In this document: piece by piece, positions 16,101 through 19,145 of the stretch
Layout of the letters: the number at the start of each line of letters is the position of its first letter
Position numbering within the stretch: the stretch's first letter is position 1
NCBI RefSeq assembly: GCF_000803215.1
Contig: NZ_JSXC01000011.1
Location: 124,001 to 188,000 of the forward strand
Source: Pectobacterium fontis
GTDB taxonomy: Bacteria > Pseudomonadota > Gammaproteobacteria > Enterobacterales > Enterobacteriaceae
Direction: 5' to 3'
Length of the DNA stretch: 64,000 nucleotides
The notes under the pieces: generated by a model
The model's database searches: none
Seen by the model: the letters and a program-made list of their open reading frames with translations, nothing else
Told to the model about the DNA's origin: nothing
Made by a program: the position numbers and the translations under genes

Positions 16101-16775
16101 GTGTCTGAGGCTACACTCGTTGTGAATAATGTCCACGTCGCCTACGGGCGCAAACATCATTTTCATCACGTTCTAAACGGCTTTTCCATGCAGGTTACCG
16201 CCGGGAAACTTGCCTGCCTGCTGGGTGCATCAGGATGCGGAAAAACCACGGTGTTACGTGCTATTGCGGGGTTCGAACGCGTCACTCAGGGGACGATTCA
16301 CGTCGGTGGACGCTGCGTCGCGGGGCCTGATGTCCATCTGCTACCGGAGCAGCGTAACGTCGGCATGGTGTTTCAGGACTACGCGCTGTTTCCCCACCTG
16401 ACCGCCGCACAGAACATTGCCTTCGGCCTGAGAAAACAGCCGAAGGATCTTCAGCAATCGCGCGTTCGCACCATGCTTGAACTGATCGATCTCACCGGCT
16501 TGGCACAGCGTTACCCACATGAAATGTCCGGTGGACAACAGCAGCGTATCGCACTCGCACGCGCACTGGCACCACAACCCGCCGTACTGCTGCTCGACGA
16601 ACCGCTATCCAGCCTCGATCCCGACAGCCGCAAACGACTGGGACAAGATGTGCGCGATATCCTGCGTGATGCCGGACAAACCGCACTTATGGTCACGCAC
16701 AGCGAACAGGAAGCCGAGCTGATGGCCAGCCACATGGGTTATTTGCAAGAAGGTAAGCTGCAATGGCGAGAGTGA
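16101..16775 (+). CDS. Ferric iron ABC transporter ATP-binding protein, short form
   Basis: Energises the iron transporter. 224 aa, GTG start with GAGGAAGAG upstream. Walker A GASGCGKTT (residues 42-50), signature SGGQQQR (143-149), Walker B VLLLDEP (162-168), switch histidine in MVTHSE (His200). It ends soon after the H-loop and lacks the roughly 120-residue C-terminal regulatory domain of typical FbpC proteins (about 345-350 aa). No remnant of that domain is visible in the following 100 bases, so it appears to be a genuinely short form. Confidence 0.87.
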   Translation: MSEATLVVNNVHVAYGRKHHFHHVLNGFSMQVTAGKLACLLGASGCGKTTVLRAIAGFERVTQGTIHVGGRCVAGPDVHLLPEQRNVGMVFQDYALFPHLTAAQNIAFGLRKQPKDLQQSRVRTMLELIDLTGLAQRYPHEMSGGQQQRIALARALAPQPAVLLLDEPLSSLDPDSRKRLGQDVRDILRDAGQTALMVTHSEQEAELMASHMGYLQEGKLQWRE

Positions 16776-16843: not shown

Positions 16844-16877
16844 AATAAATCAGCTTCACGGTAGAAGCCGATTTATT
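16844..16877. terminator. Bidirectional hairpin between convergent genes
   Basis: AATAAATC-A-GCTTC (16844-16857) pairs with GAAGC-C-GATTTATT (16864-16877) around a 6-base loop, with one mismatch. It separates the iron transporter operon from the convergent 174-aa gene and overlaps that gene's stop codon. Confidence 0.6.
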
Positions 16878-17400
16878 ACTTGTCTTTGATGCTCGCACCC
16901 GAAGATGTTTTATGCCGCCGACGCTTTCGTAAGGTATCACTGTACTTTTTTTCAGCGTCATCAGTAATGCCCACACCTTTTGCTTTCAACATAGCCATGA
17001 CCTTCTCTGGCAAAGGCATCGTTACAGGATAACCCTGTTGATGCAGGTTATCCCACGCTAATGACGTATCATCCAGTACGCCAGGCAGAGGGACGATTTT
17101 CCAATCAGGTTTCTTAAAGCCCAGCAATGCCGTGTCATCAGGCAGAGAACCCAACGTCGCCCTGCACATTTGAATTTGTTCTAGCAATAAGAGCGTTTCT
17201 GCCCGTCTTTTTCTCAGTGTTTCTGTTGATATAGCAAATTTATCCGCATCAGAGGCGAGTAAGGCGGGAAGCATATCATCCATCGAACGCTCAAATGCTG
17301 ACATATCTGCATTCGCCACCTCAGGTGAAATGTCTTCGCCATAAAGATCGGCAAGAGAAAATGTTGCCTCTTCTCGTAAGGTTTCGGATTTTGATGACAT
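16876..17400 (-). CDS. Unrecognised 174-aa protein paired with zeta-toxin-like gene
   Basis: I do not recognise this protein. It is soluble, acidic at the N-terminus (EEATFSLADLYGEDISPEVANAD), mostly helical by composition (ETLRKRRAETLLLLEQIQMCRATLG), with a middle LPGVLDDTSLAWDNLHQQGYPVTMPLPEKV and a very basic C-terminus (TLRKRRRHKTSSGASIKDK). The motif TLRKRR occurs twice (about residues 61-66 and 156-161). It begins 26 bases after the zeta-like gene stop on the same strand and is almost surely co-transcribed. By position it could be an antitoxin or a substrate-specificity partner; nothing in the sequence proves either. Confidence 0.6.
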   Translation of the reverse strand: MSSKSETLREEATFSLADLYGEDISPEVANADMSAFERSMDDMLPALLASDADKFAISTETLRKRRAETLLLLEQIQMCRATLGSLPDDTALLGFKKPDWKIVPLPGVLDDTSLAWDNLHQQGYPVTMPLPEKVMAMLKAKGVGITDDAEKKYSDTLRKRRRHKTSSGASIKDK

Positions 17401-17426
17401 AGCAACTCCTTAAATCTGAACATTTA

Positions 17427-18134
17427 TCATACAGAGATGATGTCAAGATGAGCAAGTTTTGTATAGGGACAAGAGTGTGAACTCAAAAATTCAGCTTCCG
17501 TTCTAATGTTTCTGATACGCGTAACGTTAAATTTATTCGGTTGCGTAAAGTCTTTTTCACGGTAATACACCGTCACTTGCACCTTCCCCATGAATCGTTC
17601 ATCTTTCAATACTTTTTTGATCGTCGAGCGGCACTTCATGAAGTTATGCTTGAGTACATTCAACGGAACCGTACGCTTTCTCTGTCTGGCATACGTCCAG
17701 GCAAGCGCAGGATCTAAATAAACATAATCTATAGCCGTTAAATACCCGCGATCTAAAGCCAGAGAGAGATTGAACTCAGCGTGTTTAAAGCTCGCAAAAT
17801 TTGAGTCCATGATGATGTCTAAACCATCAGCGGTGGCTTGCTTATAAATATACTCAACAAGATTCGATGCCGCACGTTGGAAGAGTGGCGCATTAGTTTC
17901 TTCGTAATACGGTAATAGCCGGCGGCATTCATCGGCATCAATCACCAGAATATTAGAAAAATCTTTGAGTCTTTGTTTGATTAACTCAGATTTGCCTGCA
18001 CCAGGAGAACCAGCGGTAAAGAAGACGGCTGGGGTAGTCGAACGCCGCAATCCCGCAGTCATAGCACGGTAAACAATATCTTTTATCGCGTCAGCAACGG
18101 CCTCCGCTAATGCCGATATTTTGGCGTCATCCAT
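17427..18134 (-). CDS. Zeta-toxin family P-loop kinase
   Basis: 235-aa protein with the zeta-toxin architecture. The Walker A motif GSPGAGKS is at residues 42-49 (Lys48), after the strand AVFFTA. VIDADECRRLLP (64-75) matches the region with the catalytic acidic residue of zeta/PezT kinases, and a later IIMDSNFAS corresponds to the substrate-binding strand. Classical zeta toxins phosphorylate UDP-GlcNAc and block peptidoglycan synthesis; whether this one does is inference. It is first in a two-gene unit with the 174-aa protein. The usual small epsilon/PezA-type antitoxin is absent upstream, where the gap to iolB holds only that operon's end. Confidence 0.75.
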   Translation of the reverse strand: MDDAKISALAEAVADAIKDIVYRAMTAGLRRSTTPAVFFTAGSPGAGKSELIKQRLKDFSNILVIDADECRRLLPYYEETNAPLFQRAASNLVEYIYKQATADGLDIIMDSNFASFKHAEFNLSLALDRGYLTAIDYVYLDPALAWTYARQRKRTVPLNVLKHNFMKCRSTIKKVLKDERFMGKVQVTVYYREKDFTQPNKFNVTRIRNIRTEAEFLSSHSCPYTKLAHLDIISV

Positions 18135-18240
18135 GAATCACCCTAATGTCGTTTTTATGATGTAACGCCAAGTATTATAACTATTACCGTAATGAAAACA
18201 GGAGGCTTACATAAAAAACATCTCCGACAAACGTAAAACT

Positions 18241-18275
18241 GGCATAGGCCTCGCAAAACAGAAAGGCGCTATGCC
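18241..18275 (-). terminator. Hairpin at the end of the iol operon
   Basis: GGCATAG (18241-18247) pairs with CTATGCC (18269-18275), extended by GCC/GGC with one bulge. Read on the minus strand only a short TTTT follows, so termination is likely but not strong. It separates the iol operon from the zeta-like gene. Confidence 0.5.
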
Positions 18276-18320
18276 AGATGCTTGCACTATCACCTCACGG
18301 CAATACGATGATGTCTGTCC

Positions 18321-19145
18321 CTATCTGTGCTTATCCGCATAGTCGGGGCTGTTGATCCACTGGTGATCGGCTTCCCAGGTGAAACGCCATTGGCGCGTGG
18401 GGCCGGCCATCACATTCAGATAGTAGCTGTCATAGCCTGCAATGGTGGCAACCGGATGGTAGCCGCGCGGCACCTGCACCACGTCCCTGTCGTAGACCGC
18501 CATGCACTCATCTAATGAACGGTCATCGGTATAGACACGTTGCAAACAGAACCCCTGCTCTGGGTTCAGGCGATGGTAATAGGTTTCTTCCAGATAGGTT
18601 TCCTGCGGTGGGCTGTCGACATCATGCTTGTGGCTAGGGTAAGAACTAGTGCAGCCTTCATCGGTGTAGACTTCAACCACCAACAGGCTATCCGCCGCTT
18701 TGTCTTCCGGCAAAATATTATGCACGTAGCGCTGGTTATTGCCGACGCCACGCTGTTCGGCGTCGATATCCTGCGGGGCGATAAGTCGGGTCGGATGTGT
18801 GCCAATCCCCGGCGCAGAGCAAACCGCAATCTCCAGCGCGGTGTGCGCCGTTACCGTCACCGCCTCTCCAGAGGTGACATAGACCGCATAGGGCTTTCGG
18901 CGCTCAAACGGGCTCATTCTGTCGCCAATCTGTTCGAAGCGCTCGCCCGGTGTGACCACCGTCGCTTTACCGCTGACCAGTACCAGACAGCGTTCATTAT
19001 CGCTGGCGGGCAGCGATAACCTCTGATCCGGTGCCAGTTGATACACATCAAACCCCACATAGCGCCAGCCCGCCGTTTCCGGCGTGATGTGCTGCGTCCG
19101 ACCATATTCGTCAGGAGCACGATGGCGTGATAAAAGTCGGGACAT
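18321..19145 (-). CDS. iolB: 5-deoxy-glucuronate isomerase
   Basis: Converts 5-deoxy-D-glucuronate to 2-deoxy-5-keto-D-gluconate in myo-inositol catabolism. 274 aa, double cupin; family features RYVHNILPEDKAADSLLVVEVYTDEG, the metal-site region SSYPSHKHD, ETYLEETYYHRLNPEQGFCLQRVYT and VPRGYHPV (landmarks only). Strong RBS AAGGAGG. Last gene of the minus-strand iolG-to-iolB operon. The 89-base gap before it holds small hairpins (GCGTG-GCT-CACGC, 19168-19180) that might tune expression. Confidence 0.95.
   Translation of the reverse strand: MSRLLSRHRAPDEYGRTQHITPETAGWRYVGFDVYQLAPDQRLSLPASDNERCLVLVSGKATVVTPGERFEQIGDRMSPFERRKPYAVYVTSGEAVTVTAHTALEIAVCSAPGIGTHPTRLIAPQDIDAEQRGVGNNQRYVHNILPEDKAADSLLVVEVYTDEGCTSSYPSHKHDVDSPPQETYLEETYYHRLNPEQGFCLQRVYTDDRSLDECMAVYDRDVVQVPRGYHPVATIAGYDSYYLNVMAGPTRQWRFTWEADHQWINSPDYADKHR

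Follow-up and report, generated by a model that had tools for sequence, protein, structure and literature searches.

In the zeta-type toxin-antitoxin systems epsilon/zeta (pSM19035) and PezAT, the antitoxin gene lies upstream of the toxin gene, whereas in the gene pair described here the partner gene lies downstream of a zeta-type kinase gene. The pair is found in a 64,000-nucleotide (nt) stretch of Pectobacterium fontis DNA (NZ_JSXC01000011.1, positions 124,001 to 188,000; hereafter the window), which lies within a 4.15-Mb genome, and is probably a toxin-antitoxin module of two genes whose order is reversed, a zeta kinase toxin followed by its inhibitor. A kinase-first order with a downstream inhibitor, and an antitoxin unrelated to epsilon, are already on record; the partner families described below are unnamed in the databases searched.

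The papers cited by PMC number are used here in excerpt. AvrRxo1:Arc1 of Xanthomonas has the kinase gene first and the inhibitor downstream (PMC4938570), and the window pair likewise places a short partner directly downstream of the kinase gene. However, the window kinase has no counterpart to the long stretch that precedes the P-loop in AvrRxo1, as its P-loop lysine is K48 and that of AvrRxo1 is K166 (PMC4938570). The Arc1 motif KExFD(x25-27)(Y/L)ExxYY (PMC4938570) occurs in 0 of 24 partners tested, the window included, and a relationship with Arc1 was rejected. In Neisseria, ng-zeta1 has an antitoxin unrelated to epsilon (PMC5923241), and the kinase of ng epsilon1/zeta1 is rearranged, with its P-loop lysine K115 mid-chain and a C-terminal OB domain, whereas here the P-loop is at 42–49 and the chain ends at 235. 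EzeT of E. coli is also an enterobacterial zeta-type kinase, but its antitoxin is an N-terminal 82-residue domain of the same chain (PMC4803016), while a separate downstream gene is proposed here; the window kinase (235 amino acids (aa), P-loop at 42) has no such long N-terminal domain. In TASmania, the neighbours paired with zeta are ParD-like, HTH_3 and integrase-like (PMC6504116), and the excerpted Xanthomonas survey places an unassigned gene upstream, not downstream, of a plasmid zeta (PMC4861877). The partner has no sequence match to epsilon or PezA in Pfam, NCBIfam, PADLOC, PHROGs and PDB sequences, and no significant match to ng-epsilon1, compared through PDB sequence searches only. A full-text literature search, with most subscription papers outside its reach, gave no description of these partners.

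Both open reading frames (ORFs) marked by a first-pass annotation of this DNA were recovered on the minus strand, the kinase gene first and the partner gene after a 26-nt gap:

17427..18134, minus strand: zeta-type kinase gene, 235 aa, proposed toxin, first of the pair (ORF reading and Pfam profile)
16876..17400, minus strand: partner gene, 174 aa, proposed antitoxin (ORF reading; conserved adjacency to the kinase)
17406..17411, minus strand: AAGGAG Shine-Dalgarno sequence of the partner gene (sequence reading)
17988..18011, minus strand: Walker A motif GSPGAGKS, kinase residues 42–49 (G42, P44, A46, G47 and K48 invariant in 20 aligned kinases)
17922..17939, minus strand: catalytic region D66-x-D68-x-x-R71 of the kinase (D66, D68 and R71 invariant in 20 aligned kinases)

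The annotation had called the first gene a zeta-toxin-like kinase with intact Walker A and catalytic-region motifs. This is borne out by Pfam Zeta_toxin (PF06414; E 7.8e-26, 91.2 bits versus a curated cut-off of 22.3) and by the presence of GSPGAGKS at residues 42–49 and of D66, D68 and R71. Its remark that the gene order differs from epsilon-zeta and PezAT is also right, but the kinase-first order is not new for a zeta-like kinase, as AvrRxo1:Arc1 shows (PMC4938570, in excerpt). D68 aligns in sequence with PezT D66, a residue whose role is treated in PMC3062530. The structure model of the window kinase alone (predicted local distance difference test (pLDDT) 91.0, predicted template modelling score (pTM) 0.88) aligns with zeta over 209 residues and with PezT over 207, and its match to zeta ends at residue 232 of the 272 residues of zeta. 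From the alignments and the model, the zeta fold, the P-loop lysine and the catalytic aspartate are all present. The pooled ratio of non-synonymous to synonymous polymorphism (pN/pS) of the kinase is 0.12 (6 rows within the genus; the broken L012 left out). Other loci are labelled here by L-numbers (L002 to L175).

Indirect evidence for a toxin-antitoxin module is strongest at the chromosomal site of the pair, where two unrelated modules swap. On one side the pair is flanked by a gene that we take, from its sequence, to be an ABC-transporter ATPase gene (16101–16775, plus strand), and on the other side by what is presumably iolB (18321–19145, minus strand). We surveyed the gap between these two genes in 25 genomes of the genus, the source genome included, all of which have iolB. 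The gap holds a kinase and partner in 7 genomes (one of the 7 kinases is in pieces; L012/L104), parD-parE in 10 (L095, L097–L099, L102, L103, L105, L108, L109, L111), parD alone in 2 (L089, L094), no gene (87–127 bp) in 5 and other content in 1. Pfam on one of the parD-parE pairs (L095) gave ParD_antitoxin at E 1.5e-6 and ParE_toxin at E 2.6e-14; the parE toxin gene in L105 looks shortened. The gap is thus a toxin-antitoxin exchange site, and the antitoxin reading of the partner gains independent support because parD-parE occupies the same site in sister genomes. The first-pass annotation had left the choice between a new antitoxin type and an effector-partner pair; its antitoxin half is favoured by this replacement, while nothing points to injection for the effector half, for which secretion signals were not looked at. 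In the genome with other content (L107), different genes follow iolB (unassigned ORFs of 190 and 213 aa), and the ATPase gene was not reached.

The partner itself, announced as unassignable, gave nothing above chance in Pfam, NCBIfam, PADLOC and PHROGs (best E 0.16) and no significant match among solved chains in PDB sequence searches. For ten partners from relatives, Pfam, PHROGs and NCBIfam gave at most weak matches (best E 0.0039), all to families unrelated to one another. Within the genus, the partner is found in 7 of 25 genomes, its own included, the other six copies being 85–115 aa as read, and the match with the window partner spans residues 1 to 66–77. Its features are as follows:

17257..17400, minus strand: N-terminal module of the partner, residues 1–48, with the core SL..LYG..IS.....A....FERSMDDM at residues 15–43 (alignments, pN/pS)
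17203..17220, minus strand: first TLRKRR, residues 61–66 (sequence reading)
16918..16935, minus strand: second TLRKRR, residues 156–161, opening the basic C-terminal tail (sequence reading)

Pooled pN/pS is 0.24 over codons 1–48 (7 rows, i.e. 7 genomes of the genus) and 0.53 over the remainder (5 rows, without the window and without L013, which is shortened). The partner gene is more than a chance ORF because of this value of 0.24, the AAGGAG Shine-Dalgarno sequence and the N-terminal match in another genus; a chance origin was rejected on the selection on codons 1–48 together with the conserved adjacency.

Outside the genus, three further genera of the same family have kinases 40–45% identical to that of the window (L015, L016, L017), each followed by a gene of the same long type, and an Enterobacter plasmid (L019) and four viral contigs also carry a kinase followed by a gene with the N-terminal motif of the window partner. 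These partners share the motif at lengths of 58–217 aa. The window and plasmid (L019) partners are 42% identical over residues 1–43 (E 4e-7, a single comparison), and a group of Kosakonia and E. kobei plasmids (L021, L022) joins via L017 (40% over residues 1–47, E 2e-8). The long partner family is therefore defined by about 45 N-terminal residues. The N-terminal module is the only portion of the partner kept across genera, and we propose that it is the part that binds the kinase; a variable middle follows it, and then a basic end in most members. The tail had been described as very basic, in agreement with a net charge of +7 over the last 19 residues (156–174). TLRKRR does occur twice in the window partner, but the motif is not conserved in relatives, which have merely basic patches at similar places, and a functional repeat was ruled out on this ground.

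More distant kinases are directly followed by a gene of about 50–92 aa (length as read), which often overlaps the kinase gene by 4 bases and whose product carries the motif [LF]S.F...ASS.EKK.VY..V...A...Q (the minimal partner). The expected adjacency to zeta-type kinases holds in genus, family, plasmid and viral loci, and the partner is downstream in the window and in the pairs read. As in a type II toxin-antitoxin system, the two protein genes are neighbours, point in the same direction and occur as a conserved pair. When viral contigs were scanned twice with kinase alignments, 47 and 61 loci were obtained, on 61 distinct contigs in all. A kinase at E 1e-10 is present on 60 of the 61 and an adjoining partner on 59 (55 minimal, 4 long), although this test is partly circular for the viral contigs that supplied rows to the partner profiles. 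The two contigs without a partner are distant sequences (L086; L175, with no kinase at E 1e-10), and the kinases of the 59 paired contigs form 28 clusters at 80% identity. The viral scan with the window kinase alone gave no match, and the scan with the long-partner alignment gave one locus, on a contig already in the set.

Among cellular genomes, whose sets overlap between the separate searches, the family search with the window kinase found 5 of 295 genomes at E 1e-3, with a long partner in 4 of the 5 and no recognisable partner beside the kinase of the distant L018. The order search found a kinase at E 1e-15 in 10 of 394 genomes, 8 of them with a partner; of the two others, L036 is a fragment, and the kinase of L037 is longer and more distant. 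In the class search, 3 of 321 genomes have a kinase, with a partner in the own genome and L038 and none recognisable beside the distant kinase of L039. Across the phylum, the minimal-partner profile has a match in 3 of 349 genomes (L112, L113, L114), with a whole kinase upstream in L112 and a kinase remnant in L113. In L114 (1501–1659, minus-strand match) no kinase is recognisable in the 3.2-kb locus, and its minimal partner is a possible orphan antitoxin. With the long-partner profile, the order search found only the own genome among 275; we give this no weight, as it is uncertain whether the draw included the known long-partner genomes. Eleven plasmid records match the kinase, and 5 of the 8 examined have a partner; four phage records match as well, and in the one examined (L027) the kinase is in pieces and a minimal partner adjoins it. 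Partner searches of PLSDB and phage records added no locus to those already found, and E. coli genomes searched by DNA gave no match. An orthologous locus is present in a Pectobacterium betavasculorum record (L007). In public records, several of these kinases are titled 'Zeta toxin family protein' and their neighbour 'hypothetical protein'.

In a tree of 36 kinases, the nine with the window-type partner stand on one side of a branch (89/82), and they form one set with the two Kosakonia/E. kobei plasmid kinases (96/88), while 21 minimal-partner kinases group apart (93/71), the partnerless L023 among them.

The decay of the pair was surveyed with kinase and partner profiles in 88 loci (60 viral, 28 others), which omit the window, L007 and L018, L026, L037, L039 and L175, all five distant. 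A kinase was counted as whole if profile positions 40–165 lie in one frame, and L048 and L082, with early stops, thus count as whole. Both genes are whole in 72 of the 88 loci, and the kinase is broken or missing with the partner kept in 11. A kinase stands without a partner in 2 (L023; L086, a distant phage protein), which leaves 1 clear reverse case. In two loci (L020, L036) the kinase is broken and the partner absent, and one is cut by the contig end (L173). The asymmetry leans toward a toxin-antitoxin module; as proof of one it was discounted, because the kinase is the larger target.

We propose the following mechanism, in which the toxicity and substrate of the kinase, its binding and inhibition by the partner and the function of the partner's tail are inferred. 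The free zeta-fold kinase would stop growth by phosphorylating a small metabolite, either a UDP-sugar or some other nucleotide. The partner would be made from a stronger ribosome-binding site than the kinase (the Shine-Dalgarno sequence at the kinase start is weaker than the AAGGAG of the partner), and would bind the kinase through its short N-terminal module and keep it silent, while the rest of the long partner, which is variable and basic, may act in regulation or stability. If this is true, a whole branch of zeta-type kinases on plasmids, viral contigs and chromosomes has its antitoxin in an unnamed downstream gene of about 50–220 aa. There would then be new partner families to set beside epsilon, PezA and Arc1 in the control of zeta-type kinases, and a chromosomal site where the mutual replacement of two unrelated toxin-antitoxin modules can be followed.

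Several points weigh against this toxin-antitoxin proposal. In an alignment read by eye, zeta E100 lines up with window kinase E94, while the position of zeta T118 is held by an asparagine, N112; the substrate contacts of zeta are given in PMC4938570, and UDP-GlcNAc (UDP-N-acetylglucosamine) may not be the substrate here because N112 replaces T118. The minimal and long partners can be aligned with each other in order, but with an hhalign probability of 0.1% and P 0.63, so that a single partner family for all kinases was dropped in favour of two, not demonstrably homologous. The P. aeruginosa plasmid kinase of the minimal-partner branch (L023:2866–3675) has no adjoining partner. By gene size alone, at least 11 of 12 losses on the kinase side has a chance of about 0.3 (our own reckoning), near-copies are among the 11 (L063, L083, L084, L085), and frameshifts on metagenome contigs may be sequencing errors. 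Finally, the one model of kinase and partner together concerns a minimal pair, not the window pair, and suggests that the partner might complete the kinase fold instead of inhibiting it.

This model was made from the viral L061, in which kinase and minimal partner are in frame across one stop; the two were modelled as one continuous chain in which Gly stood in for the stop, and only two rows of the alignment covered the partner. It has a pLDDT of 88.4 and a pTM of 0.87, a low-confidence linker (243–258), and a partner predicted to be helical at 262–269 and 272–304, with pLDDT of 88–91 over 261–300 and 75 over 301–307. We infer that the partner is confidently placed in this model, because a free-floating one should lower the pTM well below that of a kinase alone, 0.88 for the window kinase. 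Aligned by structure with zeta, PezT and AvrRxo1, the model matches them up to its residues 303–307, inside the partner helix; model residues 6–306 correspond to zeta 2–258, whereas the window kinase alone stops at zeta 232. The partner could accordingly be read as supplying in trans the C-terminal helical element of zeta, thereby completing or activating a split kinase, and the nearly constant adjoining of the two genes, many with a 4-base overlap, fits this as well. We nevertheless regard such a split kinase as unlikely. The models compared concern two different proteins, and the overlay, known by its first and last residues only, may be loose. Nor does the length of the chain help, as most kinases are about 224–265 aa as read and PezT has 253, and the window kinase is modelled with confidence without its partner. 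Neither partner profile matches a zeta or PezT chain, which rules out the partner as a zeta C-terminus by sequence. Partners also persist beside broken or missing kinases, and in other genomes a known toxin-antitoxin module takes the place of the pair at this site. In a related version, to which we give a similarly low probability, the small partner would be a detached C-terminal piece replacing the last helix of zeta, its docking would switch a two-chain kinase, and the long versions in enterobacteria would have added a variable tail.

Toxin-antitoxin pairs often act in phage defence, and the pair could serve in defence or superinfection exclusion, the kinase being an effector freed when a phage disturbs the partner. 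Many relatives are on viral contigs, and in L034 (47–2396) the last base of a pglZ-type defence gene (PADLOC PglZ E 1.2e-161) is also the first base of a minimal-type kinase gene, which a small partner follows. However, neither window protein matches PADLOC, and the site alternates with parD-parE and has no recognised defence gene; this explanation, which differs from a toxin-antitoxin module in purpose and not in mechanism, seems improbable to us. A non-toxic metabolic or repair kinase of the polynucleotide-kinase type with an accessory subunit is most improbable, as zeta and PezT are better structural matches by about 4–5 Z units (over 209 and 207 versus 160 residues), and the patchy presence of the kinase studied here (7 of 25 genomes in the genus, 5 of 295 in the family at E 1e-3) and its plasmid and viral carriage are unlike those of a housekeeping gene.

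As for the surroundings, the two genes of the pair have a low GC (guanine plus cytosine) content, 0.435 and 0.459 versus 0.523 for the window. A promoter scan gave 1 site versus 3.3 expected, i.e. no excess. An inverted repeat (CTGGCATAG/CTATGCCAG) at 18239–18277, in the 186 bp between the kinase start and the iolB end, is perhaps the iolB terminator. The same genome contains two more Zeta_toxin profile matches above the cut-off (L002, L003), in ORFs of 463 and 456 aa.
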